A DNA stretch of 64,000 bases from an uncultured Dysosmobacter sp. (GTDB lineage Bacteria; Bacillota; Clostridia; Oscillospirales; Oscillospiraceae): NCBI RefSeq assembly GCF_947631165.1, contig NZ_CANRKH010000003.1:1-64000 (forward strand), read 5' to 3'. Of the stretch, positions 2,956 to 26,083 are shown piece by piece. The translations under genes were made by a program, and so were the position numbers. Each line of letters opens with the position of its first letter. The stretch's first letter is position 1. The notes below the pieces were generated by a model. That model had not been told where the DNA came from. It saw only the letters and a program-made list of their open reading frames with translations, and ran no database searches.

Positions 2956-3028
2956 AACCTCGTATTCTCAGAGTCCAGATCGGACAGTTGCAATCTGTTC
3001 GGGAAACGGTCTAAAACACCTGTAAGAC

Positions 3029-3073
3029 AGGGCCAGAAGTCCCGGAGATCCTTCGCGGCTTCTGGCCCTTTTA
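3029..3073 (+). terminator. Hairpin between tctC and tctB (partial terminator or mRNA end stabiliser)
   Basis: AGGGCCAGAAG (3029-3039) pairs perfectly with CTTCTGGCCCT (3059-3069), followed by TTTTA. It lies inside the operon after the binding protein gene, the usual place for an element that makes the receptor more abundant than the membrane subunits. Confidence 0.75.
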
Positions 3074-3124
3074 TACCCTCTGTCCATTGAGGGTATGCAG
3101 AATGAAAGGAACCGTCGATTAGAA

Positions 3125-3568
3125 ATGAAAAAAACGATCAATACGACGGCTGTCTCGGCTGTCCTGTTCCTGCTCCTTTCCATCGTTCTATGGTTTGCCA
3201 TTCCCTACTGCATTGAAGATGCGGCTTCCGCCACCGATATCGGTCCCCGGGCGTTTCCGCGGCTCATGTGCGGCGCCATGGCAGTGCTCTGCGTTCTTCA
3301 GCTGATCCTGCTGGCCATCGGTGTGCAGAAAGGGAAAACAATCACCATACAGTTTTCGGATTATGCGCAGGTCATTCTGGCTATGGTGCTGGCGGTGGCC
3401 GCTGTACTCTGCGCTAAATTCATCAATATCGTGGCGGCGGCTGTTATTTGTGCGTTGTTGTTCCTGGCGGTGCTGCGGTCGAAAGACTGGCGCTATTATG
3501 CCGCAGTCATTATCACGGGCATATTGCTGTTCACGCTGATGCGGTTTGTTATGAAAATCCGCTTTTAA
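3125..3568 (+). CDS. tctB: Tripartite tricarboxylate transporter small membrane subunit TctB
   Basis: A ~147-residue membrane protein with four predicted transmembrane helices (about 5-25, 40-65, 75-105 and 120-145), matching TctB in size and topology. It carries the typical periplasmic DIGPRAFPR segment after the first helix. The start at 3125 (MKKTIN) has AAAGGA 14 bases upstream and leaves a positively charged N-terminus; the open frame also allows 3095. It works with TctA as the membrane part of a proton- or sodium-driven importer. Confidence 0.85.
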   Translation: MKKTINTTAVSAVLFLLLSIVLWFAIPYCIEDAASATDIGPRAFPRLMCGAMAVLCVLQLILLAIGVQKGKTITIQFSDYAQVILAMVLAVAAVLCAKFINIVAAAVICALLFLAVLRSKDWRYYAAVIITGILLFTLMRFVMKIRF

Positions 3569-3580
3569 GGAGGATGCTGC

Positions 3581-5065: not shown

Positions 5066-5090
5066 ATCCTGCGAAGGAGGATCAGGCGCC

Positions 5091-6506
5091 GTGAAATATA
5101 ATCTTTTATTCCTGATGGCAGACCAGTTTGCGTATGACGCTTTTGGTTATATGAGTTCTTTTATGCAGACGCCGAATCTCGACCGTCTGGCCAGCGGAGC
5201 CATATGCTTTTCTAACTGCTATACCAACTCGCCTCTCTGCATGCCCGCCCGTGCTTCTCTTGCCACCGGACTTTATCCGGAAGAGTTGAAGACAATGGAT
5301 AATTATGCCGCGGGACTGACCCCGGCATCACAGACTTGGATGCAGCGCATCCGGGATGCCGGATATGAAACTGCTGTGTTCGGAAAAGTGCATCTCCACA
5401 AATTCTCACCGGATCTGCGTGATTTGGCATGGCAGGTACAGAGTTACGGCTATCAGATTGTAGATGAGCTGCCTGGTCCCCGGACTTATGCCACGAAGAG
5501 ATCCAGCTATTATGACTACCTAAAGGAGCGGGGGCTTCTGGAATGTTACCGGGAAGATATGCACCGCAGGTATCAGGAAGGCCATGTCTATGACAGTCAT
5601 CCTACTCCACTGCCCACCAAGGACTATGCGGATGTGTATATCGCTGACCGGGCGCTGGAATATCTTGAAAAGGTCCCCTGTGATAAGCCCTGGTTTTCTA
5701 CTGTCAGCTTCGGCGGCCCTCATGACCCTTGGGACACTCCTGCTGAGTATGTAGAGCGCTACCGGGATCTGAAGCCTCCGGCGCCCTTGGAGGCGCCGCA
5801 TACGGTAGCTGCCGAACGACCCAGAGGTGTATATGACGAACTGCTCAACGGGAAATATGATCCTGGCCTGACAGAGGACCTGCACAATATGACGGATACG
5901 GATATTCAGGCTTTGCGGAGAAGCTATTATGGCCATGTGACGCTGATCGATGAGCAGATCGGGCGGATATTTGACTGCCTGGAGCGCCGGAATATGCTGG
6001 ACAACACTATTATTGTCTTTACTGCCGACCATGGTGAGGAAAACGGTGACTACGGATTGCTGTTCAAGCAGACGTTTTTTGAGACCTCTGTCCGTGTACC
6101 GATGCTCATCTCTCTTCCTGGAAAAACCGCACAGGCTGTGGACACGCCGGTGGAACTGATGGATCTTGGCCCGACACTGTGTGAACTGCTGGGAACACCA
6201 GTGGAATATGGTCATGCCCGCTCTTTGATTCCCCTGATGAAAGGCAGCAATTCCGCAAAGAGATATATTGTCTCCCAGATCTTTGGAGAAACAATGCTTC
6301 TCAGCCGGGGATATAAGGCGGTATTCAATCAGCGGGAAGAGATATATCTGCTGTTCGATATGCTGCACGACCCGCAGGAGACAGAAAATCTGGCCGGAAG
6401 TGAGAGCACTGCGGATATGGAAAAAATGCTCCAGGAAGACCTGAGAGCATGGCGGCTGGAATTGAACGCGAATGGAGGAGATTGCCTTGCATCCAAGACG
6501 TGCTGA
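5091..6506 (+). CDS. Sulfatase (formylglycine-dependent, Cys type)
   Basis: A 471-residue alkaline-phosphatase-superfamily sulfatase. The N-terminal metal site is in NLLFLMADQ; the active-site signature C-x-P-x-R appears as CMPAR at Cys50, which must be oxidised to formylglycine. TADHGEENGDYGL supplies the second metal-binding cluster, and GKVHLH and GGPHDPWD match substrate and sulfate contacts. I chose GTG at 5091 because GAAGGAGG lies ten bases upstream; the in-frame ATG at 5049 overlaps tctA. There is no signal peptide, so it probably acts in the cytoplasm on an imported sulfate ester. It is co-transcribed with tctCBA and the next sulfatase. Confidence 0.88.
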   Translation: MKYNLLFLMADQFAYDAFGYMSSFMQTPNLDRLASGAICFSNCYTNSPLCMPARASLATGLYPEELKTMDNYAAGLTPASQTWMQRIRDAGYETAVFGKVHLHKFSPDLRDLAWQVQSYGYQIVDELPGPRTYATKRSSYYDYLKERGLLECYREDMHRRYQEGHVYDSHPTPLPTKDYADVYIADRALEYLEKVPCDKPWFSTVSFGGPHDPWDTPAEYVERYRDLKPPAPLEAPHTVAAERPRGVYDELLNGKYDPGLTEDLHNMTDTDIQALRRSYYGHVTLIDEQIGRIFDCLERRNMLDNTIIVFTADHGEENGDYGLLFKQTFFETSVRVPMLISLPGKTAQAVDTPVELMDLGPTLCELLGTPVEYGHARSLIPLMKGSNSAKRYIVSQIFGETMLLSRGYKAVFNQREEIYLLFDMLHDPQETENLAGSESTADMEKMLQEDLRAWRLELNANGGDCLASKTC

Positions 6507-8115
6507 TGCCCCCAATATTCTGCTGATCACGGCGGATCAGCTTCGATGGGACTATGTACATGCCTATGCGCCGGATGGATTCATGAAAACACCCGCTCTG
6601 GATGCGCTGGCTGCCGACGGCTGTCTATGTGAGCGGGCCTATTCTCCCAATCCCGTCTGCATTCCAGCTCGGTACAATCTGATCACTGGACTGCCTGCCC
6701 GATATCACGGGTTTGATGACAACTATTTCGGCCCTGACGCAAAGGCTTGCCCCTGGGATCTGCCTACCTTCGCACAAATCCTTTCAGACTGCGGCTATGC
6801 CACTGCTGCCATCGGTAAAATGCACTTCCAGCCCGAGCGTCGAGCCACTGGTTTTGACCTGTTTGAAAACTGCGACGAGGTCGTCTATGACATTGCAGAG
6901 GACGAATACGCGCAATTTCTGCGGGATCAGGGTTATGAGCAGCTTGGCAGTATCCACGGAGTTCGCAATGTGCTGTATATGCAGCCTCAGCAGTCTCTCT
7001 TGCCGGAGGAACTGCACAGCTCCTCCTGGGTCGCCGACCGCTCCATTCGCTATCTGAAAAGCCGTGCTACACGCACGAAACCGTTCCTGCTCTGGGCCGG
7101 CTTTATTCATCCACATCCCCCTTTTGACGTTCCGGAAAATTGGGCACACCTTTACGATGGATGCATTCCACCGCACACATCGTCCAAAACGCCGCTTTCC
7201 AAGCTGGCCACAGAGAACCAGTGTATCGCGGATTTGCCAGATGAGACCAATATCAATCGGATGCGGGAACTCTACGCCTGCGCGGTATCCTTCATGGATT
7301 ACAATGTGGGCCGGATCTTGAAAACGCTGGATGAGGAAGGCTTGCGGGAAAACACACTGGTGGTATTTGTATCTGACCATGGCGAAATGCTGGGAGACCT
7401 GGACACTTATCAGAAGTTCCTGCCTTATGACGCATCCTGCCGCATCCCGATGATCCTTCGATGGCCCAGGCATATTGCCGCTGGTTCGAAAATGGAAGGC
7501 TTTGCGGATCTGAACGATATTCTTCCGACATTCCTGGATGCTGCGGGAACGGCCTACCCTGGCCCCATCACGCTGCCGGGCGAGTCTCTGCTGGCAAAAA
7601 AACCGAGGAAGGATCGGAGCGTCCAATATGTGGAGCATCAGCGCGGCAGCAAGCGCTGGTGCTGTCTGATCGGCCAACGATATAAGTTTGTGCACGCTTA
7701 TGGTGACCATGACCAGCTCTTTGACCTTGCGTCAGACTCGGAGGAACAGACGAATCTGCTGTGGGATCATCCATCCGAAGAGATTCTCCGCGTCAAGCGG
7801 CAGATGGAAAAACAGCTCTTGGAGTACGAAAACCGTTGGGGCCTGGCGGAGTGCGTAACGGATGGGAAATTCACACAATTCCCGCCTTATGAGATCCACA
7901 ACTATCGGGAATGCTGCTTCCCTTCCTTTATGGTACAGGAGCCGGGCGCACCCGCACATACACCGCTTGAGGATGAAATTTTGCAGGCAATTGCCAAGGA
8001 ACCAACGGTACATTTGGCAGACCTGCATATTCGAGAATCTCTGACGGCATTTGGGAATATGTCAGATCAGGACGTGGACGATCTGTTGGGGCGTGCCCGG
8101 CAGCAGGGGAATTAA
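6487..8115 (+). CDS. Second sulfatase (formylglycine-dependent, Cys type)
   Basis: A ~542-residue sulfatase with LLITADQ at the first metal site, CIPAR at Cys58 (maturation Cys) and VSDHGEMLGD at the second metal site. TTG at 6487 is preceded by GGAGGAG with a six-base gap; an in-frame ATG at 6472 overlaps that site and has none of its own. It overlaps the first sulfatase by 20 bp, implying translational coupling. A C-terminal extension of about 60 residues after the catalytic domain (rich in helix formers, ending near DDLLGRARQQ) is not shared with the first. No secretion signal is seen. The two enzymes are diverged and probably remove different sulfate groups. Confidence 0.88.
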   Translation: MHPRRADAPNILLITADQLRWDYVHAYAPDGFMKTPALDALAADGCLCERAYSPNPVCIPARYNLITGLPARYHGFDDNYFGPDAKACPWDLPTFAQILSDCGYATAAIGKMHFQPERRATGFDLFENCDEVVYDIAEDEYAQFLRDQGYEQLGSIHGVRNVLYMQPQQSLLPEELHSSSWVADRSIRYLKSRATRTKPFLLWAGFIHPHPPFDVPENWAHLYDGCIPPHTSSKTPLSKLATENQCIADLPDETNINRMRELYACAVSFMDYNVGRILKTLDEEGLRENTLVVFVSDHGEMLGDLDTYQKFLPYDASCRIPMILRWPRHIAAGSKMEGFADLNDILPTFLDAAGTAYPGPITLPGESLLAKKPRKDRSVQYVEHQRGSKRWCCLIGQRYKFVHAYGDHDQLFDLASDSEEQTNLLWDHPSEEILRVKRQMEKQLLEYENRWGLAECVTDGKFTQFPPYEIHNYRECCFPSFMVQEPGAPAHTPLEDEILQAIAKEPTVHLADLHIRESLTAFGNMSDQDVDDLLGRARQQGN

Positions 8116-8136
8116 CTGTTTCTCATAAAACATTGT

Positions 8137-8182
8137 AAAACGGCGGATAGGTCTTGAGAAACAGCCTGCCCGTCGTTTTTTC
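8137..8182 (+). terminator. Intrinsic terminator after the sulfatase operon
   Basis: AACGGCGG...AGGTCT and AGCCT...CCGTCGTT form an imperfect stem followed by a T run (8175-8181). Confidence 0.65.
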
Positions 8183-8214
8183 TTTCACAACATTGCTAAA
8201 TGAGGAGTATGATT

Positions 8215-9045
8215 ATGAATCCTATCGAATTGCGAATCCGGGATGCTGCAGATTATATCCGCAGAAAGACAGATCTGGTGCCTGAACTTGGCCTGGTATT
8301 GGGCAGCGGCCTGGGAGATTTCTGTGTTGGATTGGACCATGCTGTCTCCATCCCCTTTTCTGAGGTCCCTGGTTTTCCCGTACCCACTGTGGAAGGCCAC
8401 AGCGGAATGGTGGTGATTGGCCGGTATAACGGTGTGCCTGTCATGGCGCTGCGGGGCCGTGTCCACTACTACGAGGGCGGTACGCAGCAGGAAATCACCA
8501 TCCCCATCCGGGTTATGAAGCTTCTGGGTGTCAAGACTGTTCTGCTGACCAATGCCAGCGGCGGCATCAACACCAGTTTCAGAGAGGGCACGTTGATGCT
8601 GATTTCTGATCACATCAATTTTTCTGGCGCCAATCCTCTGATTGGGCCCAATCTGGATGTGTTTGGGCCCCGTTTTCCGGATATGGGTGATGTTTACACC
8701 AGGGAACTGCGGAAAAAGATCCGTGCTCAGGCTGCTGAAATGGGCATTGATCTGCGGGAAGGCATCTACGCCATGACCAGCGGTCCCAGTTATGAAACGC
8801 CGGCAGAAGTTCGGATGTTTCGTGCTCTAGGTGCCGATGCTGTTGGCATGTCCACGGTTCCAGAGGCCATTGTGGCCCGTCACACCGGAATGCAGGTAGT
8901 GGGCGTTTCCTGTATTACTAACATGGCGGCGGGCCTTCTGGACCGTCCACTCGATCACGCGGAAGTGGTGGAGACAGCTAACCAAGTGAAACAGGAATTT
9001 CTCCGTCTGGTGGAAGCTGTTATCGCCATCTGTGCAGAAAATTGA
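8215..9045 (+). CDS. punA: Purine nucleoside phosphorylase (trimeric type)
   Basis: A 276-residue phosphorylase that splits purine nucleosides with phosphate to base plus ribose-1-phosphate. Conserved features: LGLVLGSGLGDF (phosphate loop), PGFPVPTVEGHSG, RGRVHYYEGG, LTNASGGIN, SGPSYETPAEVRM and VGMSTVPE, then ITNMAAG (base-binding Asn). Start 8215 lies seven bases after GAGGAG; an ATG at 8200 would overlap that site. It sits just before adenosine deaminase, which makes inosine, a typical substrate of this enzyme family. A terminator separates it from the sulfatases. Confidence 0.92.
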   Translation: MNPIELRIRDAADYIRRKTDLVPELGLVLGSGLGDFCVGLDHAVSIPFSEVPGFPVPTVEGHSGMVVIGRYNGVPVMALRGRVHYYEGGTQQEITIPIRVMKLLGVKTVLLTNASGGINTSFREGTLMLISDHINFSGANPLIGPNLDVFGPRFPDMGDVYTRELRKKIRAQAAEMGIDLREGIYAMTSGPSYETPAEVRMFRALGADAVGMSTVPEAIVARHTGMQVVGVSCITNMAAGLLDRPLDHAEVVETANQVKQEFLRLVEAVIAICAEN

Positions 9046-9093
9046 TTTTTTAGATATCAGTGCTGAAATTGCCCCGAAGAAAAGGCTTCCACT

Positions 9094-9351
9094 ATGAATC
9101 AGATCGCGCTCATCAAACCAACATCCAGTCTCTGCGATATGTGCTGCTGGTACTGTTTCTATGAAGATGCAGCCGCAATGCGCACAAGGCCCAATTTGGC
9201 ATGCAGTACAGAAATGTTGGATGAGCTGGCAGAGAAGGAGAGGCATTATGTACCAAGGAATGATCGATCTTCACCTGCACCTAGATGGATCTTTGTCTAT
9301 TCCGTTTGTCCAGACGTATTTAAAAAGATGCGGTCAGTCTATTCCTGCTGA
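9094..9351 (+). pseudogene. Truncated anaerobic sulfatase-maturating enzyme (radical SAM), N-terminal fragment
   Basis: The first ~48 residues match the start of anSME enzymes: ALIKPTSSLCDMCCWYCFY contains the radical SAM C-x3-C-x2-C triad (Cys14, Cys18, Cys21) and the family-typical FY after it, then STEMLDELAEK. Real anSMEs are about 370-400 residues and have further cysteine clusters; here homology stops near 9240, where the adenosine deaminase ribosome binding site begins, and the rest of the frame is out-of-frame adenosine deaminase sequence. The gene is therefore a 5' remnant. It lies just downstream of two Cys-type sulfatases, which fits an original sulfatase-maturase cassette. Confidence 0.7.
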
Positions 9352-10222
9352 CCTGCACGCAGCCCTTTCTGTATCCCCTTCATGCAAAAGCTTGACTGAC
9401 TATTTAGAACGGTTCTCTTTGCCCAAGCGGATCCTGCAATATGCTGATGCTCTGGAACTATCTGCATATGATTTAGTCAAACGATTGGCTTTGGAAGGAT
9501 TGATTTATGCAGAAATACGTTTTGCACCAGCTTTTCATTGTGAGCTTGGACTGACACAAAGTAATGTGGTAGAGAGCGTTATCCGGGGAGTCCATCATGC
9601 AATGAAAGAATTTCCATCCATCAAGATTGGCCTCTTGTTGTGTATGATTGTGGGAGATGAACACAATCAAGAAACCCTGCAAACCGCTCTGCACTATCAC
9701 GGAAATGGTGTGGCAGGTTTGGATCTCGCCGGGCCAGAAGGTGCGGTCCCCCTGGAAGCATACAAAGCTCTTTTCGGGAAAGCCAAAGAAGCGGGTTTGC
9801 CATTTACAATCCATGCCGGAGAGTGCGGTAGTGTAGATAACATTTTGAAAGCTGTGGAGTTTGGAGCCCAGCGTATTGGGCATGGCGTAGCGGCGGTTCA
9901 GGATCCAACTTGCATGGAGCTTCTGGCAGAGCGAGGAACGATTTTGGAATGCTGCTTTACCAGTAATTTGCAAACGAGAGCTGTATCAATGCCAGCGGCA
10001 CATCCAATACTATCGTTCTACCGGCACGGATTGGCAGTCACGGTCAATACAGACAATCTTACGGTATCTTCTACCAGCCTTGCCAAAGAACATCAGGCTC
10101 TTATGCGGTTTTTTCCGCTGACGGATGAAGATTTCCTGCAGATGGACTACAATGCTATTCGAGGAGCTTTCCTATCAAATGCTGATAAAGCACAACTAGT
10201 AAAACACTTAAAGGAACATTGA
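9248..10222 (+). CDS. add: Adenosine deaminase
   Basis: A 324-residue amidohydrolase-superfamily enzyme converting adenosine (or a related adenine nucleoside) to inosine. Zinc ligands and catalytic residues are visible: DLHLHLDGS (H9, H11), FTIHAGECG (His and Glu), RIGHG and NTDN near 280. ATG 9248 has AAGGAG seven bases upstream; the longer frame from 9161 has none. It follows the phosphorylase and probably forms a purine nucleoside salvage unit with it. Adenine deaminase-type activity is less likely given the length and HAGE motif. Confidence 0.88.
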   Translation: MYQGMIDLHLHLDGSLSIPFVQTYLKRCGQSIPADLHAALSVSPSCKSLTDYLERFSLPKRILQYADALELSAYDLVKRLALEGLIYAEIRFAPAFHCELGLTQSNVVESVIRGVHHAMKEFPSIKIGLLLCMIVGDEHNQETLQTALHYHGNGVAGLDLAGPEGAVPLEAYKALFGKAKEAGLPFTIHAGECGSVDNILKAVEFGAQRIGHGVAAVQDPTCMELLAERGTILECCFTSNLQTRAVSMPAAHPILSFYRHGLAVTVNTDNLTVSSTSLAKEHQALMRFFPLTDEDFLQMDYNAIRGAFLSNADKAQLVKHLKEH

Positions 10223-16697: not shown

Positions 16698-17507
16698 TTA
16701 ACGATCCTCAACATCCTGGAAGTAGGTATCTCTGTCAACCCATGGCAGCGTTTGACCGCCGTCAACATTGATGGCTTGTCCATTGATTTGGGCCGCTTCT
16801 TTTGATGCCAGGAAAATTGCAAGATACGCATGATCTTCCGGTGTGGCCAAGCGGGCAGTGGGGATCTGGCCTTTGCGCCACGCAAGCTGCTCGGGAGATG
16901 TTATCATTGCCTGCAGCATCGGCGTCAGCGTGCTTCCTGGACAAATCGCATTCACGGTAATGCCAAACTCGCCGCCTTCCATCGCTAAATGCCGTACCAA
17001 TCCAATCTCCCCTGTTTTAGAGGCTGTATAGGAAGGAACACGTCCGGCAGCCATACGCTGATGAATTGCGGAAGCAATATAAATGATCCTCCCGAACCGC
17101 TGCTTGCGCATAATGGGAAATACTGCCGCAGCGCAAAGATATGCGCCTATCAGATTGACCTCGACCACTTTCCGAAAGCCGCTGACAGACTCCGCCGGCA
17201 CCTTTTTTGTATCACCCTGCATCATGATGCCTGCGCTGTGGACCAGCACATCGATCCTTCCGTTATATGTATCAAGGGTCTTCTGAACAGCAGCATTCAC
17301 CTGCTCCTCATCACTGATATCGCAGGAAAACGCAGCACACTCGCCGCCTGCTGCCATGATCTCATCACAGACTCGCTTATTGTCTGCCTCATTTCGTGCC
17401 CAAACCACGACTTTGGCTCCGGCTTTTGCAAAGGTTTTTGCGATTCCTTCGCCAATTCCTTTATTTCCGCCAGTAACGATAACGACTTTCCCTGTTACAT
17501 CAAACAT
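16698..17507 (-). CDS. SDR family NAD(P)-dependent oxidoreductase
   Basis: A 269-residue classical short-chain dehydrogenase. TGGNKGIGEG binds the nucleotide, HSAGI replaces the NAAG structural motif, and the catalytic residues are the Ser near IYIASAIH and SYTASK (Tyr-x3-Lys). ARNEAD after beta-2 gives a basic residue consistent with NADPH, but this is weak. GAAGGAGG precedes the ATG. It ends the minus-strand run racemase, gate-domain transporter, SDR, so it may reduce or oxidise a hydroxy or keto product of that pathway. Confidence 0.87.
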   Translation of the reverse strand: MFDVTGKVVIVTGGNKGIGEGIAKTFAKAGAKVVVWARNEADNKRVCDEIMAAGGECAAFSCDISDEEQVNAAVQKTLDTYNGRIDVLVHSAGIMMQGDTKKVPAESVSGFRKVVEVNLIGAYLCAAAVFPIMRKQRFGRIIYIASAIHQRMAAGRVPSYTASKTGEIGLVRHLAMEGGEFGITVNAICPGSTLTPMLQAMITSPEQLAWRKGQIPTARLATPEDHAYLAIFLASKEAAQINGQAINVDGGQTLPWVDRDTYFQDVEDR

Positions 17508-17650: not shown

Positions 17651-18838
17651 TCAGGCGAAAAACTGTACCAACACGAACAACCAGTGTGCCGCGATGCCGG
17701 CGCACAGACCACCGATGGTATGACTGATAATGGCTTTGCCGATCAGTTCTTTGCAATGCAGGCTGTCCATCATGGAGGCATGGGTGCTAAGGTAGCCGCT
17801 AAAGCACATGCACATAGCTGTGAACACTGCAATATCGCCTCCACTCACCAGTCCCTGGCCTGCCAGCGTGGCGACCAGGCCCAGGGATGCGCCTGCAGCG
17901 CCCAGGGCAGTAACCGGAACGGCGATTGCCTCAGGTGAAGAAAATCCGAACAGCGGGTTCAAAATAAAATCCAGCTTCTCGGCGATCATCGGGATGAGCC
18001 GAATGCCTTCATAGGCGCTGCCGGTGTATGTACCGTCCACAGACGGGCCATTGATCAGCATCATGACGACTGTGCAGATGATCAGTACACCAGGAATGAT
18101 GCTCATACCCATTTTCACGCCGCTATGTCCGCCCTCCAGGAGGGCATCCATAAACCGGCCCGCGGCACTGCCCTGCCGGACAGGCCGCATATCTGGTGGG
18201 ATCGACATCCCCTCTGCCGCATTAGACAGCGCCGGAGCGTCCGGCCCAAAGATCTTTTTCGTATGACGCATCATCAAGCGCGTACTGACAATGCTGCCGA
18301 TCACCGCCCCCGCAAGGCCCACAATGACGGCCAGACCCAGAGATTCCCCCATCGTGGAGGAAAGACTCAGCATATAGGTGCATACGATCAGTCCCATGCC
18401 AAAAGCGGTTCCCATATTGCATAGCGCGGGAAACTGATAGCGCTTGAACCGGTCGCGGAAGTACTGGTCCTCCGCAAGAGCGAGGATTGCGGGATTGTCT
18501 GAGAGAAAGGTCGTAACGATTCCCAGAGCTGCCGCTCCCGGCAGTCCATAAATTGGCCTCATAAGCGGCTGCAGGAGCTTATTGACGAGAGACACGAATC
18601 CGAACTCAGAAAGGAGAGCGGAGATCGCGCCCATCAGTACGCAGATTGCGGTCAGATAGAGGACTGTATCCATCAGCAGCTGATACGCTGTGTTCATCAT
18701 CGTATTGATCGTATTTGCAAGGCCCATTTGCCCCGCTAGCATTGCGAAAAAGGCCACGAACAGCAATGGGAAAATAAATGTCTCGGCACTCAGTTCTTTT
18801 TTCAGCTGGATGGCCTGGCTTCCAGAAGTCGGATCCAT
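17651..18838 (-). CDS. Gate-domain (nucleoside recognition) membrane transporter, YjiH-like
   Basis: A 395-residue membrane protein with about ten helices and two regions typical of the nucleoside-recognition 'gate' domain (TTFLSDNPAILALAEDQYF and SGGDIAVFTAMCMCFSGYLSTHAS). ATG 18838 has GGAGGTG upstream; an upstream in-frame Met at 18868 lacks a site. Family members are often carriers of unknown substrate despite the domain name. It lies between the racemase-family gene and the SDR on the same strand and is probably the importer or exporter for that pathway. Confidence 0.75.
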   Translation of the reverse strand: MDPTSGSQAIQLKKELSAETFIFPLLFVAFFAMLAGQMGLANTINTMMNTAYQLLMDTVLYLTAICVLMGAISALLSEFGFVSLVNKLLQPLMRPIYGLPGAAALGIVTTFLSDNPAILALAEDQYFRDRFKRYQFPALCNMGTAFGMGLIVCTYMLSLSSTMGESLGLAVIVGLAGAVIGSIVSTRLMMRHTKKIFGPDAPALSNAAEGMSIPPDMRPVRQGSAAGRFMDALLEGGHSGVKMGMSIIPGVLIICTVVMMLINGPSVDGTYTGSAYEGIRLIPMIAEKLDFILNPLFGFSSPEAIAVPVTALGAAGASLGLVATLAGQGLVSGGDIAVFTAMCMCFSGYLSTHASMMDSLHCKELIGKAIISHTIGGLCAGIAAHWLFVLVQFFA

Positions 18839-19007
18839 GAAAACACCTCCAATGTTTGTATGCAGCAATTATTTTAAGTATCTGAAAAGAACGCAAAGAA
18901 CATTTGGGAGCAACACTGCACCCCTGTTATGACCAGTCTCCGTCCACTGAGGGTGTGCACTGTTGAGAATTTTCTTCCCAGGCGGTTCAGTTCCTTTTTT
19001 GTCAGAC

Positions 19008-20012
19008 TCAAAGAACAAAGCCGGCCTTAAAAGGATCCTGTTCGTCAAGAAAAAGTGTGTTGAATCCTGTGACATAAGCGCTTCCTGTGATCTCTGGAAT
19101 GATGGCGTCAAACTCATTGACCTTCACATTGCGCAGCGCTCGGGCCCGGAATTTGGTGCCGAGGATACTTTCATGAACAAACTCCTTCCCCAGTTCCAGT
19201 TTTCCCTCTTTCACAAGGGCCGCGATCTTTGCGCATGTGCCTGTTCCGCAGGGAGAACGGTCGACCTCTCCATGTCCAAACACGACCACATTTTGAACAT
19301 CTGCGTCCGACGCCTTGGGCGGTCCGTATATTTCAACGAGATCGACGCCTTCGATCGGAACTTCCGGATGACGCACTACCATCTGTTCATTGACGCATTT
19401 ACGCAGCTCCAGTGCTCTGGGCACAATTACCGAGAGACGATCGGCAGAGATCTCCTCGATCCCCAGCTCTTCCTTGTGCACCAGCGCAAAGAAGCTTCCT
19501 CCAAACGAGATATCGACCGTCACGCGGCCCAGCTGCGGCACCGTGACGACAGCCTTCTCTCGATACAGAAATGCCGGTACATTGCGGAAGGAAACCTCCA
19601 CAGCACGGCCATTTTCCACCTTGACTGTGACATCCACGGGCCCTGCGGGGGCTTCCAGTCTAATGTTCGTAATGGGCTCCATAACAGGGACCATGCCCAG
19701 CTCCACCAGCGCCGTGGACACGCCGATGGTCCCATGCCCGCACATGTTCAGACAGCCCTCAGCGTCCATAAACAGCATGCCGTAATCGCAGGTGGGGTCG
19801 CAGGGCTCTGTGATCAGCGCCCCAAACATGTTTTCATGCCCTCGGGGTTCCAGCATACAGGCACTCCGCAGATGATCATAATGGCTCAAAAAGTAATTCT
19901 TTTTTTCCATCATTGTCGTCCCCTTTAATGCCGGAACGCCGCTGATGATAACGCGGGTCGACATCCCGGCTGTATGCGTATCGACCGCCTGAATAGCATT
20001 CTTTATGTTCAT
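19008..20012 (-). CDS. Proline racemase / hydroxyproline epimerase family enzyme
   Basis: A 334-residue member of the proline racemase family. Both catalytic thiols are present: MCGHGTIG (Cys91) and DRSPCGTGT (Cys255). Trans-3-hydroxyproline dehydratases replace one with Thr or Ser, so racemase or epimerase action is favoured here. The substrate (proline, 4-hydroxyproline or another cyclic or acyclic amino acid) cannot be settled by reading. GAGGAGG lies before ATG 20012. Two copies of TTGACATGTCA(A/T) lie in its promoter, next to the convergent-order gntR gene, so it is probably GntR controlled. Confidence 0.87.
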   Translation of the reverse strand: MNIKNAIQAVDTHTAGMSTRVIISGVPALKGTTMMEKKNYFLSHYDHLRSACMLEPRGHENMFGALITEPCDPTCDYGMLFMDAEGCLNMCGHGTIGVSTALVELGMVPVMEPITNIRLEAPAGPVDVTVKVENGRAVEVSFRNVPAFLYREKAVVTVPQLGRVTVDISFGGSFFALVHKEELGIEEISADRLSVIVPRALELRKCVNEQMVVRHPEVPIEGVDLVEIYGPPKASDADVQNVVVFGHGEVDRSPCGTGTCAKIAALVKEGKLELGKEFVHESILGTKFRARALRNVKVNEFDAIIPEITGSAYVTGFNTLFLDEQDPFKAGFVL

Positions 20013-20113
20013 CGCGTTTGCCTCCTCTGGCTGTATCATGTTGTCCAACCCTGCCGCTTCGTCAAACAGCCAATTTACGGGTTTCCAATAAAGCCGTCCG
20101 CAAATTAGACATG

Positions 20114-20125
20114 TTGACATGTCAT
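20114..20125. promoter_or_regulatory. GntR-type operator candidate, copy 1
   Basis: TTGACATGTCAT, one mismatch from the 12-bp palindrome TTGACATGTCAA found at 20151 and 23020. It lies about 100 bp upstream of the racemase-family start. Confidence 0.7.
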
Positions 20126-20150
20126 TTATTATGAAAATATCACATGCAGG

Positions 20151-20162
20151 TTGACATGTCAA
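20151..20162. promoter_or_regulatory. GntR-type operator candidate, copy 2, on the racemase promoter
   Basis: Perfect palindrome TTGACATGTCAA. On the minus strand its TTGACA could be a -35 with TATTTT 17 bases later, so a bound regulator would block the racemase promoter. Confidence 0.75.
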
Positions 20163-20212
20163 CTGGGATCTTGAAATTTTTCTAAATTTGGCATTCCAAC
20201 TAGATATCAATA

Positions 20213-20240
20213 AACCGCCGCAGGTCTCCTGCGGCGGCTC
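20213..20240 (-). terminator. Terminator of the gntR gene
   Basis: CCGCCGCAGG and CCTGCGGCGG form a perfect 10-bp stem with a three-base loop; on the minus strand TTTATTG follows. Confidence 0.75.
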
Positions 20241-20285
20241 ATTACCAAACAAACTCTAAGCTATTACATATGCGTTTGCAGTGTC

Positions 20286-20993
20286 TCACTTTGCACAAAC
20301 TTCATTTGTGCTGCCTGCTGTGAAAACGACTTCGTATGCCATAGGCATATCCTGGTCGTCACGCAGATCAAGGCCAAACCTCAAAATAGGGGCTCCGACT
20401 GGGATATTCATGAGTTCGGCCCTTTTTTCATCACAAAGTACCGCGGATGAAGTCGCATAGCATGGACCGACAATCCGCCCACAGATCTTTGCGATTTCAG
20501 AAAGCCCTGCGTTTTCCATATGGTTGTCCAAGACAAAGGAAAACGCATCATGCGAAAGGAACATCTCCTCCAATGCATATGGCTTCTGGTCAACATATTT
20601 CATGCGCTCGATGACGATCACGATCTGGTTGTTTTGAAGGCCTAATTTCTGCATCACTTCTTCAGAAGGCTGCTCTATACGGCAGCCAATGCACTTATGC
20701 TCACCGGGGATCGACAGGGCATCTATGGATACAGCCAACTGCGTCAATTCAGAGCTTTTATACAGTTGACGTGCGGTGGTTTGTTTGGAAACAAAGGTGC
20801 CTTTCCCTTGCACGCGATAGATGATCCCATCCTGCACCAGCTCCCGCAATGCGGTCGTTACGGTGATACGGCTGCATCCAAACTGCTTGCTGAATTCAGC
20901 GTCTGTTGGGATCCGCATATCCTCGGCCCATTCACCGGAGGCAATTTTTGATTTGATAAACTGTTGAATCCTCACATATACTGGGATGCTCAT
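20286..20993 (-). CDS. GntR/HutC family transcriptional regulator (UTRA domain)
   Basis: A 235-residue regulator: N-terminal GntR winged helix (residues 5-70; IPTDAEFSKQFGCSRITVTTALRELVQDGIIYRVQGKGTFV) and a C-terminal UTRA ligand domain (about 90-230) of the chorismate-lyase fold. GAAGAGG precedes the ATG. It lies in the middle of a region carrying several copies of TTGACATGTCAA, a plausible HutC-type operator, and is the only GntR gene in the window. The UTRA ligand is usually a small metabolite related to the pathway; identity unknown. Confidence 0.9.
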   Translation of the reverse strand: MSIPVYVRIQQFIKSKIASGEWAEDMRIPTDAEFSKQFGCSRITVTTALRELVQDGIIYRVQGKGTFVSKQTTARQLYKSSELTQLAVSIDALSIPGEHKCIGCRIEQPSEEVMQKLGLQNNQIVIVIERMKYVDQKPYALEEMFLSHDAFSFVLDNHMENAGLSEIAKICGRIVGPCYATSSAVLCDEKRAELMNIPVGAPILRFGLDLRDDQDMPMAYEVVFTAGSTNEVCAK

Positions 20994-21198
20994 GTACTAC
21001 CTCTTCGTTCTCTGATTGTTTTGAACTTGTCCCATCACATGCCTTCTTTTGTGTTACGTGACGGCCTCTCATAACAATACACATTGCCTTAACATATTTC
21101 TTTATATCATATCAAAGAACCATAGGTAAAGTCAAGGCAGATATGTCGTAAACGGTGCCAACTTCTGGCAGGACATTTCCATTCCTCGTCCTGAATTC

Positions 21199-22437
21199 TC
21201 AGCTGTTTCCCGCACTTTTATTTCCGCTTATGGAAGTTGGCCAGATCAGGAAGCTCAGCACCTGGGCCAACAGAAATCCCAGTACGATCCCGAAGCAGCT
21301 CAGCAACAGGGCGAGTCCCTTTTCGCAGGCAAAGGAGAAATCCCCGATCACAACGCCGTACATAGCGTAGTACAGTGCGGTGCCCGGGATGATCGGGAAA
21401 ACAGAGATCGTTTGAAAAACCGTCGCAGGCGCCTTGTGGGCCCGTGCCATGATCTGTGAAAAAAGAGCGCAGACCACCGATCCGGTCAGAGTTGCCCAAA
21501 AGTTATTGGAGACGTAGTAAAAGCACAGCAAATATGCGGACCATGTTAAAAAGGCTCCCAAAGTGCACCAAAGGATATGCCGGCTTTTGACGCGAAACCA
21601 CAGGGAGAATCCTAAGCATCCTATCGTGCAGGAGAGCAGTCCGACTTCTATGCGGGGATTTAAGATCATGATTTCGTTGACGCCCTGATCCAAAAACAGG
21701 CGCAGAGGCAGGACGATCCCCAGCGCGATGCCGATAGCGCCTGTGATTGACAAGCTGATGTTTAATACGCCGGAAAGGGTGTCCAAACTGACCAGATCCC
21801 GTACGCCGTTGGTGGTGCCCAATGCGCTGATCAACAGCATCACGACGCCTGCTGCCACATAGCCTACATGGTGTCCAAGGCCATATCGCACGGAAAAGAT
21901 GATAAAGACTTCCGCAAGGAACGAGATCGCAAAATTTGCGACCAAAGGATTATCCTCTTTCCGGCTGATGCTCCGGCTCAGGAAGGTGACTAAGAGCGAC
22001 GTGCAGACCGCTGCGGCGGCATCAGCCAAATCGCAGTTGAAAAAAACGCCAAACCCGCCGCCTGCCAACGCTCCCGCCAAGTAATTTATCCATGCATGTT
22101 GAGGGGGACTGCTGATTGCCGCAAGCTGGGCAGCAAAGGGGCCCGGAGCCGGTCTCTCCGCACAGACGCGGCGTGAGAGCGCGTTGAGATCATCCAGGCG
22201 CCCGAAGTCTATACCGCTCCGTCGGATATGGCGAATCTGTGTTATGCAGCTGCCGTCCGGCACTATTGCAGTCGCCTGAATATTGCTGGGAATGACCCAT
22301 ACATTACATCCGGCGAAACCATAACTCTCGCACATGCGGTATAAGCTGTCCTCAACCCGGTGTGTTTCCGCCCCGCTTTGGATCATAGCGGTGCCCACGT
22401 CGAGAATCAGCTGCAAAATGCGTTCATAATCACTCAT
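21199..22437 (-). CDS. ThrE-type threonine/serine exporter family membrane protein (fused form)
   Basis: A 412-residue protein with the ThrE architecture: an N-terminal soluble DUF1212 domain (QSGAETHRVEDSLYRMCESYG near 20-40, ending about 115), then about ten membrane helices, joining both halves (DUF1212 and DUF3815 types) in one chain. CGGAG lies before the ATG. ThrE proteins export threonine and serine in actinobacteria; related forms carry other solutes. It is divergent from ridA with a candidate GntR operator between them, which suggests that it handles an amino-acid-like compound of this locus. Confidence 0.85.
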   Translation of the reverse strand: MSDYERILQLILDVGTAMIQSGAETHRVEDSLYRMCESYGFAGCNVWVIPSNIQATAIVPDGSCITQIRHIRRSGIDFGRLDDLNALSRRVCAERPAPGPFAAQLAAISSPPQHAWINYLAGALAGGGFGVFFNCDLADAAAAVCTSLLVTFLSRSISRKEDNPLVANFAISFLAEVFIIFSVRYGLGHHVGYVAAGVVMLLISALGTTNGVRDLVSLDTLSGVLNISLSITGAIGIALGIVLPLRLFLDQGVNEIMILNPRIEVGLLSCTIGCLGFSLWFRVKSRHILWCTLGAFLTWSAYLLCFYYVSNNFWATLTGSVVCALFSQIMARAHKAPATVFQTISVFPIIPGTALYYAMYGVVIGDFSFACEKGLALLLSCFGIVLGFLLAQVLSFLIWPTSISGNKSAGNS

Positions 22438-22506
22438 AGCATGCTCCGTTTATGATTGATAAGTCCTGAGGGCTTGGTTATTTTATCTAAGTATATCGCT
22501 TAAAAT

Positions 22507-22518
22507 TTGATATGTCAA
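22507..22518. promoter_or_regulatory. GntR-type operator candidate, copy 3, between ThrE-type gene and ridA
   Basis: TTGATATGTCAA, one mismatch from TTGACATGTCAA. A second overlapping near-copy (TCAACATGTCGA) follows at 22515. It could serve both divergent genes. Confidence 0.6.
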
Positions 22519-22532
22519 CATGTCGAATTTTC

Positions 22533-22561
22533 TTGACAAACGTATCATACGAGATTAAAAT
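22533..22561 (+). promoter_or_regulatory. Promoter of ridA
   Basis: TTGACA (22533-22538), 17-base spacer, TAAAAT (22556-22561). The operator candidate lies just upstream of the -35. Confidence 0.65.
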
Positions 22562-22614
22562 GAACACCAGAAGACACTAATAAAAGAACATGTACTGGGA
22601 AGGAGGGAATGTCA

Positions 22615-22974
22615 ATGAATATCGATCGTTACAACAGCAACGGCAGATTCCATGAGGCTGTAGTCTACAACGGCACGCTGTATCTGTCCGGTCAGGTGGC
22701 CAGCGGAGGCGGTACGGTAGCGGAACAGGCGAAGGAGTGCTTAGACAATCTGGGAAAAACACTTGAAAAATACGGCTCAGATAAAAGTTTGATCCTGTCG
22801 GCGACCGTATACCTTGCAGACATGAACGGATTTGCGGAATTTAACTCCGTCTGGGACGCATGGTTTGAAAACGGGACGCAGCCGGTACGGACCTGTGTGG
22901 GCGCGCAGCTGGCAGCACCCAAGTATGCCCTCGAGATCACGCTCATTGCCGCTTTGAAAAACAAAGTCCATTAA
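22615..22974 (+). CDS. ridA: RidA family protein (enamine/imine deaminase)
   Basis: A 119-residue RidA (YjgF/YER057c/UK114) protein. The fold-specific core is intact: YLSGQVA, AEQAKECLDNLGKTLE, and QPVRTCVGAQL with the catalytic Arg that binds the carboxylate of 2-aminoacrylate. It hydrolyses reactive enamines or imines made by PLP enzymes or amino acid oxidation. ATG 22615 is eight bases after AAGGAGG; the in-frame ATG at 22609 is too close. It has its own promoter and terminator, with a GntR-type operator upstream. In this setting it may clear an imine produced by the locus. Confidence 0.9.
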   Translation: MNIDRYNSNGRFHEAVVYNGTLYLSGQVASGGGTVAEQAKECLDNLGKTLEKYGSDKSLILSATVYLADMNGFAEFNSVWDAWFENGTQPVRTCVGAQLAAPKYALEITLIAALKNKVH

Positions 22975-22984
22975 GCGGTGTGGC

Positions 22985-23008
22985 ATCGCACAGTGTGTGC
23001 GATTTTTT
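22985..23008 (+). terminator. Intrinsic terminator of ridA
   Basis: ATCGCACA and TGTGCGAT form an 8-bp stem around GTG, followed by TTTTTT. Confidence 0.8.
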
Positions 23009-23019
23009 CTATCCCTATA

Positions 23020-23031
23020 TTGACATGTCAA
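23020..23031. promoter_or_regulatory. GntR-type operator candidate, copy 4, before the radical SAM operon
   Basis: Perfect TTGACATGTCAA, identical to the copy at 20151. It lies 198 bp before the first radical SAM start and just after the ridA terminator, so it belongs to a separate promoter. Confidence 0.75.
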
Positions 23032-23228
23032 CATATCAATATGGAATGGCTCCTTCCTTTACCGGACACGCAGCTGCCGGACAGCAACTCCTATAAAACC
23101 GGCATACCAGCACCACGGGGCAGGAAATCCGTTTACTATACAGGAAGGGGAAAGGAAGCGTTACGCAGTGTGAGAACAAGCGCGTGTTGAAACGGTGATC
23201 TCAAAAAACAATTAGTGGAGGTACAAAT

Positions 23229-23915
23229 ATGGATTTTTTCGTGTACAAGCAGTATGAACATGTTAAGGTTGATCCTGATGGCCGCAAGGTCCTCTCCGTG
23301 AATATCAACCCCGAAAAGGCCTGCATCTTCAATTGCAAGATCTGCAACGCAGGTCAGACCAAGTATCAGGGCGAGTGGCACGATTTCGGTGACCCCAGCG
23401 AATCCCTGAAGGGCCTGGCTAAGAGGATCGAGGAGGAAAAGCCCGATATCGTGGAAGTTACCGGCGGCAAGGGCGATCCCCTGACCAACCCGATCCTGCA
23501 GGGCATCCTGGACTGCGCCCACGGCCATGGTGTGGCTGCCCGCCTGATCACCAACTGCTATCTGCTGGGCATCGACGGCCATGTCGAGCTGGCGACCCAG
23601 TTTGAAGAGGTCGTCGCGGGCTTCTGCTTTACCGACGAGGCCACCTTCAATGAGATCCACCGGCCCGTTCCGGAGCTGGAGTTCTCTGCTGCCAAGCAGA
23701 CTGAGAGCATGATCCGCTTCAGCCACCAGTATAACGGCAAGTTTACCCTCCGCGCTCTGTTGGTCAAGGGCTACAATGATTCCGATGAGCAGGTCGCAGA
23801 GCTGAAGAAGGTCATCGACCAGATCAAGTATACGACCCTCTGGGTGGGCACCTGGCCCAAGTACCAGGTCAGCGAGGAGCGTGTGGAGGAGATCTCCAAG
23901 ATCCTGCACGCCTGA
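23229..23915 (+). CDS. Small radical SAM protein A (COG0731-like), tandem paralogue 1
   Basis: A 228-residue radical SAM protein. The [4Fe-4S] triad is C-x3-C-x2-C at Cys32, Cys36 and Cys39 (ACIFNCKICN). Downstream, TGGKGDP may be the SAM amino-group strand, LITNCYLL matches the family's LTNGSLL strand, and TFNEIHRPVPELEF, then LRALLVKGYNDSDE, follow the pattern of COG0731 wyosine-like proteins. There is no extra iron-sulfur domain and the usual N-terminal GPVPSRRLG is replaced by VDPDGRKVLSVNI. GTGGAGG precedes the start. It is 31 bp from paralogue B and followed by a sodium symporter. The reaction is unknown. Confidence 0.88.
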   Translation: MDFFVYKQYEHVKVDPDGRKVLSVNINPEKACIFNCKICNAGQTKYQGEWHDFGDPSESLKGLAKRIEEEKPDIVEVTGGKGDPLTNPILQGILDCAHGHGVAARLITNCYLLGIDGHVELATQFEEVVAGFCFTDEATFNEIHRPVPELEFSAAKQTESMIRFSHQYNGKFTLRALLVKGYNDSDEQVAELKKVIDQIKYTTLWVGTWPKYQVSEERVEEISKILHA

Positions 23916-23946
23916 TTCGGCAGCTTCACAAAAAGGAGTTTGAAAC

Positions 23947-24630
23947 ATGAATTATCTGAAGTATAAAATGGATGATTACATCAAAGTAGGCGATGATGGG
24001 CGCAAGGTGCTTGGTGTGGACATCCAGCCTGAAAAGGCCTGTATTTTCGACTGCATCGTATGCAATCGCGGCCGGACCAAGTACCAAGGCGAATGGCACG
24101 ACTTCGGACCTATCGAAGACTCTTTGGAGGACCTGAAGAAGAAAATCGCGGAGGACAAGCCGGATCTGGTGGAGATCTATGGCCAGGGGGATATTTTGAC
24201 CAACGTACATCTGGAGGATATCATCAACTGTGTCCATGCGCTGGGCCTGCCGGTCCGTCTGGTCACGAACTGCTACCTGCTTGGCATTGGCGAGCATATG
24301 CGTGTTGCCAACCTGGCAGAGGAAGTCGTCGGGGCGTTCGGGATCGTGGAAGACGAGGCATTCAAAAAGTATCACCGTCCGCTTCCCGAATTGGAGTTTA
24401 CCCCCGCCAAGCAGACGGAAAGCATTATCAGATTCAGCCAGCAGTATCAAGGCAAATTCAAGCTCCGAGTCTTTCTCAGCCAGAACTTCAACGATTCGGA
24501 CGAAAGCGTTGCGGTACTGAAAGCCATTGTTGACCGCGTCAAATTTGACTCTCTGTGGGTCGCAAGCACCAATAAGCTCGCAGTGCCCGACGAAAGAGTC
24601 GCGGAAATCACTAAAATCCTGAACGCCTAA
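23947..24630 (+). CDS. Small radical SAM protein B (COG0731-like), tandem paralogue 2
   Basis: A 227-residue paralogue of protein A, identical at roughly half of the residues by eye and colinear throughout. Its triad is at the same positions (Cys32, Cys36, Cys39; ACIFDCIVCN), and GRTKYQGEWHDFG and ELEFTPAKQTES match A. Clear differences sit around the active site: IYGQGD in place of VTGGKGD, and VGAFGIVEDEAF in place of VAGFCFTDEATF. Such paired conservation with local divergence suggests a heterodimer or two successive steps. AAGGAG precedes the start. Function unknown. Confidence 0.87.
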   Translation: MNYLKYKMDDYIKVGDDGRKVLGVDIQPEKACIFDCIVCNRGRTKYQGEWHDFGPIEDSLEDLKKKIAEDKPDLVEIYGQGDILTNVHLEDIINCVHALGLPVRLVTNCYLLGIGEHMRVANLAEEVVGAFGIVEDEAFKKYHRPLPELEFTPAKQTESIIRFSQQYQGKFKLRVFLSQNFNDSDESVAVLKAIVDRVKFDSLWVASTNKLAVPDERVAEITKILNA

Positions 24631-24664
24631 AATAACTTTAAGAGAAAAAGAGAGGAGTTTCCAC

Positions 24665-26083
24665 ATGACTTTTGCGCAAATGGTTCCTCAGCCTAAAATG
24701 CTGATCATGATCGCGGCATATTTTGTCGTGGTGTTTATCTTTGCATATCTGGCCAAGAAAAAAGAAAACAGAAAGAGCATCAAAGACTTTGCTCTTGCCG
24801 GAAAGGGCCTCAGTTCTTTCGTTTTGATGGCTACTTTTATGGCGTCCTGGATGGGCGGCGGCGCGGTTGCCGGCAGCATCAATTCCATTGCGTATACCGC
24901 AGGCCTCTTCCCCTCCATTTGCTATGCGTCCGGCAGCATTCTGGCCATTGTCATTCTCTACGCGATCGGACCTCTGGTGCGCAAGAGAGGTAAGATGACG
25001 ACCGCCGCGCTGATCGAGGACAGCTACGGGACCAATGCCCGCGTGCTGTCCGCCGCAGTGATCGCGCTGGCCAGCTTTTCCATTGTTTCCTATCAACTGC
25101 GCGCCATGGGTATCGTGCTGAACGCTACGACAGGATTCGACATTGAACTGATGACATTGATTGCCTGTGTTGTGGTCATCATTGCGACGGTTTCCGGCGG
25201 ACTGAGCTCTGTGGTGAAGATCGACGCCTTCTCTGTCTGCGTCATGCTGGCCGGCCTCGTTTGCGCCTTTATCTACATCTTCAGCCATATCGGCGGCTGG
25301 GGATGGGTCCTGGACCGTACAGCCGAGCTGGCTCCTCAGGGCCTGACCTTTACCGCCGGATGGACCGCAAAAGATTATCTGGCAAACTATGCTCCCGGCT
25401 TCCTGCTGGCTCTGGGCGATCAGAACCTGTATCAGAGAATGGCTGCGGCCAAGGGCGACAGAAACGTACAGATCGGCATGATCGGCTGGGCCTTGGGCAC
25501 CATCATTGTGCTGCCCTCCGTCTCCGTGCTGTCTTACATTGGACGTCTGTATTTTGGCAGCAATATCATTGCTTCTCAGTCCTTCATTGCTCTTTCCACC
25601 GTGTGTCCGTGGGTGATCGGCGGCTTGATGATGGCGTCCTGCACGGGCTTCATTCTCACCACCGCCAATTCCTATCTGCTCTCTGGCTCCACCAATGTAG
25701 GTACTGATATCTTCACGCATTTCAAAAAGGATGCTTCGGACGCTCAGATTGTCAAAGTGACCAAAATCAGTATTGTGGTCTTTGGCGTAGCGTCCTTGAT
25801 CCTGCTGAACTTCTTCCCCAGCATCCTGGCCATTCAGTATTGGGCGAGCACGATCGTCGGCGCGGGGATCACCCCCTCTCTGCTGGCCAGTGTTGTGTGC
25901 CCCAATAAAGTGACCAAGTGGGGCGGTATCGCATCCATGGTAGGCGGTACGATCCTGACCATCGGCTGGGAGATGGCCGGCCAGCCCTTTGGCCTTGCGA
26001 CAGTGCTTGTCGCCTTCCCGTTCTCTGTGCTTCTGCTTGTCGTTGTCTCCGCACTGACCCGGAATAAGGCACTGCAGGCCTGA
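24665..26083 (+). CDS. Sodium:solute symporter (SSS family)
   Basis: A 472-residue protein with about 13 hydrophobic helices and SSS-family features: KSIKDFALAGKGLSS after helix 1, ATFMASWMGGGAVAGS in helix 2, and GDQNLYQRMAAAKGDRN in the loop after helix 6. It is the third gene of the radical SAM operon (34 bp after B; RBS GAGGAG). It is probably the importer for the compound used in this pathway. SSS members carry sugars, amino acids, panthothenate-like and other organic acids, so the substrate is open. Confidence 0.88.
   Translation: MTFAQMVPQPKMLIMIAAYFVVVFIFAYLAKKKENRKSIKDFALAGKGLSSFVLMATFMASWMGGGAVAGSINSIAYTAGLFPSICYASGSILAIVILYAIGPLVRKRGKMTTAALIEDSYGTNARVLSAAVIALASFSIVSYQLRAMGIVLNATTGFDIELMTLIACVVVIIATVSGGLSSVVKIDAFSVCVMLAGLVCAFIYIFSHIGGWGWVLDRTAELAPQGLTFTAGWTAKDYLANYAPGFLLALGDQNLYQRMAAAKGDRNVQIGMIGWALGTIIVLPSVSVLSYIGRLYFGSNIIASQSFIALSTVCPWVIGGLMMASCTGFILTTANSYLLSGSTNVGTDIFTHFKKDASDAQIVKVTKISIVVFGVASLILLNFFPSILAIQYWASTIVGAGITPSLLASVVCPNKVTKWGGIASMVGGTILTIGWEMAGQPFGLATVLVAFPFSVLLLVVVSALTRNKALQA

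Follow-up and report, generated by a model that had tools for sequence, protein, structure and literature searches.

We analysed a stretch of 64,000 nucleotides from an uncultured Dysosmobacter sp. (NCBI RefSeq assembly GCF_947631165.1, contig NZ_CANRKH010000003.1, positions 1 to 64,000; hereafter the window), and in it a locus that encodes two small radical S-adenosylmethionine (SAM) proteins, A and B, followed by a symporter of the SSF family. The locus belongs to a set that recurs in other genomes: a GntR regulator, an operator, A and/or B, and the SSF symporter, to which a Pyramidobacter genome adds the exporter ThrE, the deaminase RidA and a Gate-domain carrier. We tentatively read it as a repressible module that imports and converts proline or a closely related imino or amino acid. 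A preliminary description had already taken these genes for one system; that reading survives, with a proline racemase-type enzyme as an optional part and with the substrate class narrowed by independent context. The host genome (G000) comprises 3.16 Mb and is 94% complete. The features of the locus are as follows.

16698..17507, minus strand: SDR-family dehydrogenase (Pfam adh_short_C2, 202 bits), placed with the module only by position.
17651..18868, minus strand: Gate-domain carrier of the CD0519/CD1768 family (NF049989, 550.6 bits, cut-off 300; Pfam Gate, 39 bits).
19008..20012, minus strand: proline racemase-type enzyme (Pfam Pro_racemase, 394.9 bits; NMCGHG and DRSPCGTG Cys motifs).
20104..20162, no strand assigned: predicted operator region upstream of the racemase, with an extended minus-strand site (core 20108-20123) and an exact 12-base palindrome at 20151.
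20286..20993, minus strand: GntR/UTRA (HutC-like) regulator (Pfam GntR 53.7 and UTRA 55.9 bits, both above cut-off).
21199..22437, minus strand: ThrE-type exporter (Pfam ThrE and ThrE_2).
22508..22528, plus strand: predicted operator in the intergenic region from which ThrE and RidA diverge (zero-mismatch core, GATATGTCAACATGTC).
22609..22974, plus strand: RidA-family imine/enamine deaminase (Pfam Ribonuc_L-PSP, PF01042, 98.4 bits, cut-off 27.3).
23021..23041, plus strand: predicted operator upstream of A (zero-mismatch core, GACATGTCAACATATC).
23229..23915, plus strand: radical SAM protein A, 228 aa (C32-x3-C36-x2-C39).
23947..24630, plus strand: radical SAM protein B, 227 aa (C32-x3-C36-x2-C39).
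24665..26083, plus strand: SSF-family symporter (Pfam SSF, PF00474, 91.3 bits, cut-off 22.8), a probable proline or imino-acid importer to judge from its relatives.

The list of open reading frames and Pfam place the racemase, GntR/UTRA, ThrE, RidA, A, B and SSF genes within 19008-26083. Together with NCBIfam they confirm the genes and coordinates first given for GntR, RidA, the racemase, ThrE, Gate, the paired radical SAM proteins and the symporter, except that the racemase gene, which starts with the ATG at 20010-20012, and the Gate gene lie to the left of the interval 20012..26083 originally assigned to the locus. RidA carries an Arg in the motif PVRTCVG, which we take to be the active-site Arg. 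Long antisense frames (246-360 aa) were also seen on the minus strand opposite A, B and SSF, at 23136-23948, 23926-24666 and 24638-25720; they are probably a by-product of codon usage, not genes.

Relatives of A and B were collected in one scan of a contig collection (84,980 species) with two peptide patterns, so divergent members may have been missed. The scan yielded four loci in three metagenome-assembled genomes (MAGs). The other A/B genomes are designated G454, G455 and G456; three of the four A/B genomes are thus MAGs, and their A/B contigs measure 3.4-13.7 kb. The four loci, and a further Pyramidobacter contig, are composed as follows.

L004, Eubacteriaceae MAG: GntR, two operators, A and SSF.
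L006, Clostridiales MAG: A, B, SSF and GntR.
L007, Pyramidobacter MAG: ThrE, two operators, B and SSF.
L005, same Pyramidobacter MAG as L007: A and SSF; a variant repeat lies upstream of them, and a fragment of GntR is present (35% identity across 62 residues).
L094, Pyramidobacter MAG: the end of an SSF gene, Gate (70% identical), MFS, GntR (46%) and RidA (69%), all on one strand, with RidA directly after GntR.

The SSF gene lies directly downstream of A or B in 5/5 loci, and the symporters themselves are 63-84% identical to that of the window in L004-L007 and 60-88% identical across all loci. The best GntR matches in the three other A/B genomes are 64, 47 and 46% identical, and the ThrE of the window is 57% identical to that of L007, which is divergent from the B gene. 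Beyond its SSF gene, L007 reaches the beginning of the Gate gene of L094, which links the two contigs; besides this Gate start they share 137 out of the initial 1000 31-base words, and their SSF 3' ends differ. Six families (GntR, ThrE, RidA, radical SAM, SSF and Gate) therefore recur in another phylum, in another order, within one MAG. The recurrence of GntR, the operator, ThrE, RidA and Gate in the Pyramidobacter MAG supports the earlier proposal of a single GntR-controlled unit. As to the suggested co-occurrence of the radical SAM proteins with their neighbours, it held for the palindrome and, in Pyramidobacter, for RidA, and failed for the racemase.

Close relatives of A and B were found in 0/59 of the other genomes closest to the host (one gave a weak match over part of the length, 27% identity) and in 0/397 other Bacillota genomes (27 with weaker matches, best E 2.0e-42); a GntR match at E<=1e-40 was likewise found in 0/397 of the latter, with at most 7 candidates scored per genome. 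A wider radical SAM family, 25-40% identical to A/B where measured, occurs at E<=1e-25 in 17/184 other Synergistota genomes, with mixed neighbours. As read by eye, three wider-family loci (L008, L069 and L074) adjoin MATE-type exporters, and L008 and L069 also a Phe-tRNA synthetase B3/B4-like protein; this neighbourhood may be another undescribed association. The neighbours of Gate in Cetobacterium were uninformative.

The palindrome noted before several of these units is not above chance within the window, where 6 copies with <=2 mismatches compare with 3.08 expected and 7/100 shuffles reach as many. Across the whole host genome, both exact copies of the 12-base palindrome and 4/6 copies with <=1 mismatch lie inside 3 kb at the cluster. 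A degenerate 16-base core, GAYATRTCAACMTRTC, has three zero-mismatch sites in G000, all in the cluster (before the racemase, between ThrE and RidA, and before A), and two one-mismatch sites elsewhere. Since this core was derived by comparing some of the sites themselves, its fit to those sites is built in, which does not hold for its absence elsewhere. In G454, 2/2 zero-mismatch sites lie between GntR and A, in G456 2/2 lie between ThrE and B, and neither genome has any elsewhere. The core is present in 1/184 other Synergistota genomes, and reversed-pattern controls at <=1 mismatch gave 0-1 matches per strand. Genome-wide confinement to the cluster and recurrence in the other A/B genomes rule out a chance palindrome, and the description of a common palindrome before several units thus stands. 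Upstream of the second Pyramidobacter locus (L005:382-401) we observed a variant direct repeat, TGACTTATCAACTTATCAAT, by the diverged GntR fragment; together they possibly mark a sibling regulon that has an operator to itself.

A and B are 56% identical, and alignment bears out that they are small tandem paralogues with C-x3-C-x2-C at the same positions. C32, C36 and C39 are invariant in 7/7 A/B proteins and in 8/8 aligned proteins of the wider family; the seven A/B sequences have no other invariant Cys. Pfam Radical_SAM (PF04055) scores A at 23.4 and B at 18.6 bits, under the curated cut-off of 29.5, and 5/7 members match at E<=0.1; fold models support a predicted radical SAM partial-barrel fold for both. 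The sequences form two clades, four of A-type and three of B-type, with identities of 65-82% within A, 66-73% within B and 53-59% between them. The preliminary description had allowed that one paralogue might be a decayed copy; this is ruled out, as A and B are each conserved as a clade of their own. The two differ consistently at 14 positions, 9 of them in or <=2 residues from the three final strands of the predicted structure (127-132, 171-178 and 203-208), and residues after the third Cys and around 156 are common to A and B and missing in eight wider-family members. These clade-specific residues and differing strand ends suggest, from sequence comparison, that A and B may handle the same kind of substrate in two ways. 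The heterodimer that had been envisaged is not required, though compatible with the data, because A and B are split between separate Pyramidobacter loci and A stands alone on L004, a MAG contig from whose assembly B may have been lost. By sequence, A gave only 8 weak matches among solved structures (best E 0.03, DesII) and the A/B profile none. Viperin and its prokaryotic relatives (pVip) were rejected as an identity: the NCBIfam viperin model scored A at 29.3 bits against a cut-off of 180 and did not list B, and PADLOC pVip, for which no cut-off is stated, gave 25.6 for A and 12.7 for B. A tblastn of A against phages returned no match, and a scan of viral contigs gave 31 pattern matches, 0 of them confirmed.

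In order to narrow the cargo we examined relatives of the symporter in 398 Bacillota genomes (E<=1e-60, at most four SSF candidates scored per genome), reading stretches of 9.9-12 kb; haloarchaeal relatives were read with flanks of 4-6 kb, and controls at 24-26% identity with flanks of 4 kb. A new observation emerged. The seven nearest matches found outside the host, 35-41% identical and from five genomes, all lie by proline-related or M24/amidohydrolase peptidase-type genes, and two of them sit in clear D-proline reductase (prd) operons. The M24 peptidases were mostly typed by Pfam only, that of L115 against NCBIfam, and neighbours resembling prolyl-tRNA synthetase (ProRS) by eye.

L112: SSF at 39% identity in a prd operon, with racemase (537 bits, cut-off 556), PrdB and PrdA (792, cut-off 700).
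L115: SSF at 35% identity in a prd operon, with racemase (576, cut-off 556), PrdD (363, cut-off 320) and PrdB; also an M24 peptidase, best as Xaa-Pro dipeptidase (237, cut-off 630), and a ProRS-like class II synthetase with an editing domain.
L109: PrdA/PrdB-like fusion (515, below cut-off) and an Xaa-Pro dipeptidase-like amidohydrolase (289, cut-off 500).
L114: M24 peptidase, amidohydrolases and a proline dehydrogenase-like gene (275, cut-off 500).
L111 and L113: M24 peptidase carrying a Creatinase_N domain, typed by Pfam alone; in L111 a ProRS-like gene as well.
L110: solely an Xaa-Pro dipeptidase-like amidohydrolase (282, cut-off 500).

For haloarchaeal SSF proteins at 36-38% identity, 3/4 annotated loci show an Xaa-Pro peptidase annotation next to the symporter gene, a fifth record being unannotated, and a Skermanella SSF at 34% identity has an amidohydrolase next door in L099, one of two records. 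Of the control symporters, five of the eight among the matches listed at 24-26% identity were read, and in 0/5 of these loci is an Xaa-Pro peptidase, a prd gene or a racemase annotated. Because its nearest outside relatives adjoin proline-related or peptidase-type genes, the cargo of the SSF symporter is probably proline or a prolyl or proline-like compound. For the locus, this context supports the earlier amino- or imino-acid reading; the chemistry of A and B we infer. One distant SSF, on an Oceanisphaera plasmid (L119:5704-9242), was seen near FAD-dependent oxidoreductases and a RidA gene, possibly an oxidase-based counterpart that brings together a carrier, an enzyme forming the imine, and RidA.

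The racemase-type enzyme has AsProR (7pb3) as its nearest PDB chain (residues 4-332, E 2.8e-114). Both Cys motifs, NMCGHG and DRSPCGTG, are present, and their Cys are presumably the catalytic pair. It scores 451.5 bits with the NCBIfam proline racemase model, under the equivalog cut-off of 556, and this shortfall is weak evidence against a proline racemase because the racemase of the L112 prd operon also falls short (537). The family PF09338 (PrdA/glycine reductase), which we assume covers PrdA, has 0 matches in the host. On this ground we rejected a D-proline reductase fed by the host racemase; the enzyme is probably not feeding a classical reductase. G454 and G456 hold 7 PF09338 matches; typing covered the three strongest, which are best as sarcosine-reductase type, below cut-off, with weak PrdA-model matches as well, and four weaker G454 matches were left out. 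The SDR gene runs in the same direction as the Gate gene, 143 bases after it, and has no relative on contigs L004, L005, L006, L007 or L094. Elsewhere in the window, at 1942-10222, TctC and TctA carriers lie by two sulfatases and by phosphorylase-superfamily and adenosine deaminase-family genes (Pfam), an assemblage that by its gene content would form a separate uptake and degradation cluster.

In the module that we propose, GntR would repress the genes until substrate binds, and the SSF protein would import proline or a proline-like compound with Na+. A and B would then run a 5'-deoxyadenosyl-radical reaction on the substrate or on two related forms of it. On chemical grounds, cyclic imines would be expected from abstraction at the proline alpha carbon or at C5, and possibly ring opening from abstraction at C3 or C4. 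RidA would hydrolyse the resulting imine or enamine, ThrE and the Gate carrier would export surplus amino acid or product, and in the host the racemase-type enzyme would have been added to the regulon, probably for interconversion of L and D forms. A more specific proposal is that free proline itself is the direct substrate of A and B (its L and D forms, or proline plus a derivative). They would form a selenium-free radical route of proline use, in anaerobes without D-proline reductase, that has spread across Bacillota and Synergistota together with a dedicated importer, regulator, imine deaminase and exporters; in this form we regard the reading as unlikely.

Several observations weigh against the import-and-conversion reading. 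RidA, ThrE and Gate are missing from the short L004 and L006 contigs. On L094 no operator was found, and its differing SSF end, without a radical SAM gene seen beside it, may belong to a third copy, a strain variant or mixed strains in the MAG. G455 has three one-mismatch core sites and zero exact ones, the sequence 5' of its A gene being off the contig. The racemase, which had been counted as part of the system, has no linked homologue in the other A/B genomes (none in G455 and G456; two in G454, 44-46% identical, on other contigs) and is thereby ruled out as a member of the recurring core. Among the symporter relatives, a single genome supplies three of the seven loci, L110 is the weakest of the seven, SSF proteins at 35-41% identity can differ in substrate, and two control loci have suggestive neighbours of their own (an amidohydrolase next door in L120, an ornithine cyclodeaminase-family gene in L117). 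No A/B homologue of known function was found, and one SAM per turnover is costly for catabolism unless SAM is reused. Finally, the top match of the A and B fold models is the activating enzyme of pyruvate formate-lyase (PFL), which acts on a protein.

This last point fits the main rival, in which A and B would activate or mature a protein encoded elsewhere, such as a glycyl-radical enzyme working on the imported compound, and the module would be the uptake and activation cassette of that protein. We consider it a minority possibility that deserves attention. A resemblance in fold is no proof of function, it is not evident why such a task would call for two conserved paralogues alongside a single type of symporter, and no glycyl-radical family was seen among 30 window proteins (Pfam) or by eye in the open reading frames of L004-L007 and L094; no genome-wide search was made. 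A gene set under GntR-type control that includes RidA and two or three exporter-like carriers would also suit detoxification, in which the regulon would detect a toxic analogue of an amino acid and dispose of it, with ThrE, Gate, MFS and RidA protecting the cell and A/B altering the analogue. The gene most tightly tied to A/B is, however, the importer-type SSF (5/5 loci), odd for protection, and we find this explanation rather improbable. That A and B modify RNA in the manner of TYW1, with carriers that are merely co-regulated, seems very improbable, as their rare presence and tight link to one symporter and one operator are unlike such enzymes and only the three Cys of the motif are invariant. 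A chance neighbourhood of unrelated amino-acid genes could draw on the racemase and the SDR gene, both unlinked to the module elsewhere; it is contradicted by the recurrence of the operator and six gene families in another phylum in a different order, and is scarcely credible.

Collectively, our results suggest that the import-and-conversion module may give anaerobes an as yet undescribed route for processing proline or a similar compound. No published description of the gene set or of a radical SAM proline route was found in the openly licensed literature, a negative that carries little weight. Anaerobes that ferment amino acids use proline as a main electron acceptor, and the described route needs a selenoprotein. 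If the proposal is true, a second radical route would change which bacteria count as proline users, and a small radical SAM family for which we found no substrate class would gain one, with operator and regulator at hand for tests.

Among known systems, PFL-activating enzyme and other small radical SAM activases show 13-14% identity to A and B in structural alignments, and the module differs from them in that no glycyl-radical enzyme is seen nearby. TYW1 has a second 4Fe-4S cluster and a catalytic Lys; unlike TYW1/COG0731 proteins, A and B are ~228 aa long, have no invariant Cys beyond the motif and are symporter-linked. Operons of the dguABC type, in which a RidA-family protein accompanies an amino-acid dehydrogenase, resemble the module in combining RidA with an amino-acid-type carrier, and PA5083 is the fifth nearest PDB sequence to the window RidA; they differ in that no flavin dehydrogenase is found among the cluster genes (Pfam), so that A and B would need to make the imine. 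The prd operons of Stickland fermenters resemble the locus in their relatives of its symporter (39% in L112, 35% in L115) and in the proline racemase inside them, whereas the host lacks a PF09338 match and its locus has radical SAM proteins, RidA and GntR operators instead. The inducible fluoroacetate reductase operon farACEB of Cloacibacillus, a Synergistota fermenter, combines a radical SAM gene, whose role is unclear, with a carrier (PMC10838667). It resembles the module, judged by gene content, in that a radical SAM gene stands with a transporter, and differs in its glycine-reductase-type protein B subunits and MFS carrier.

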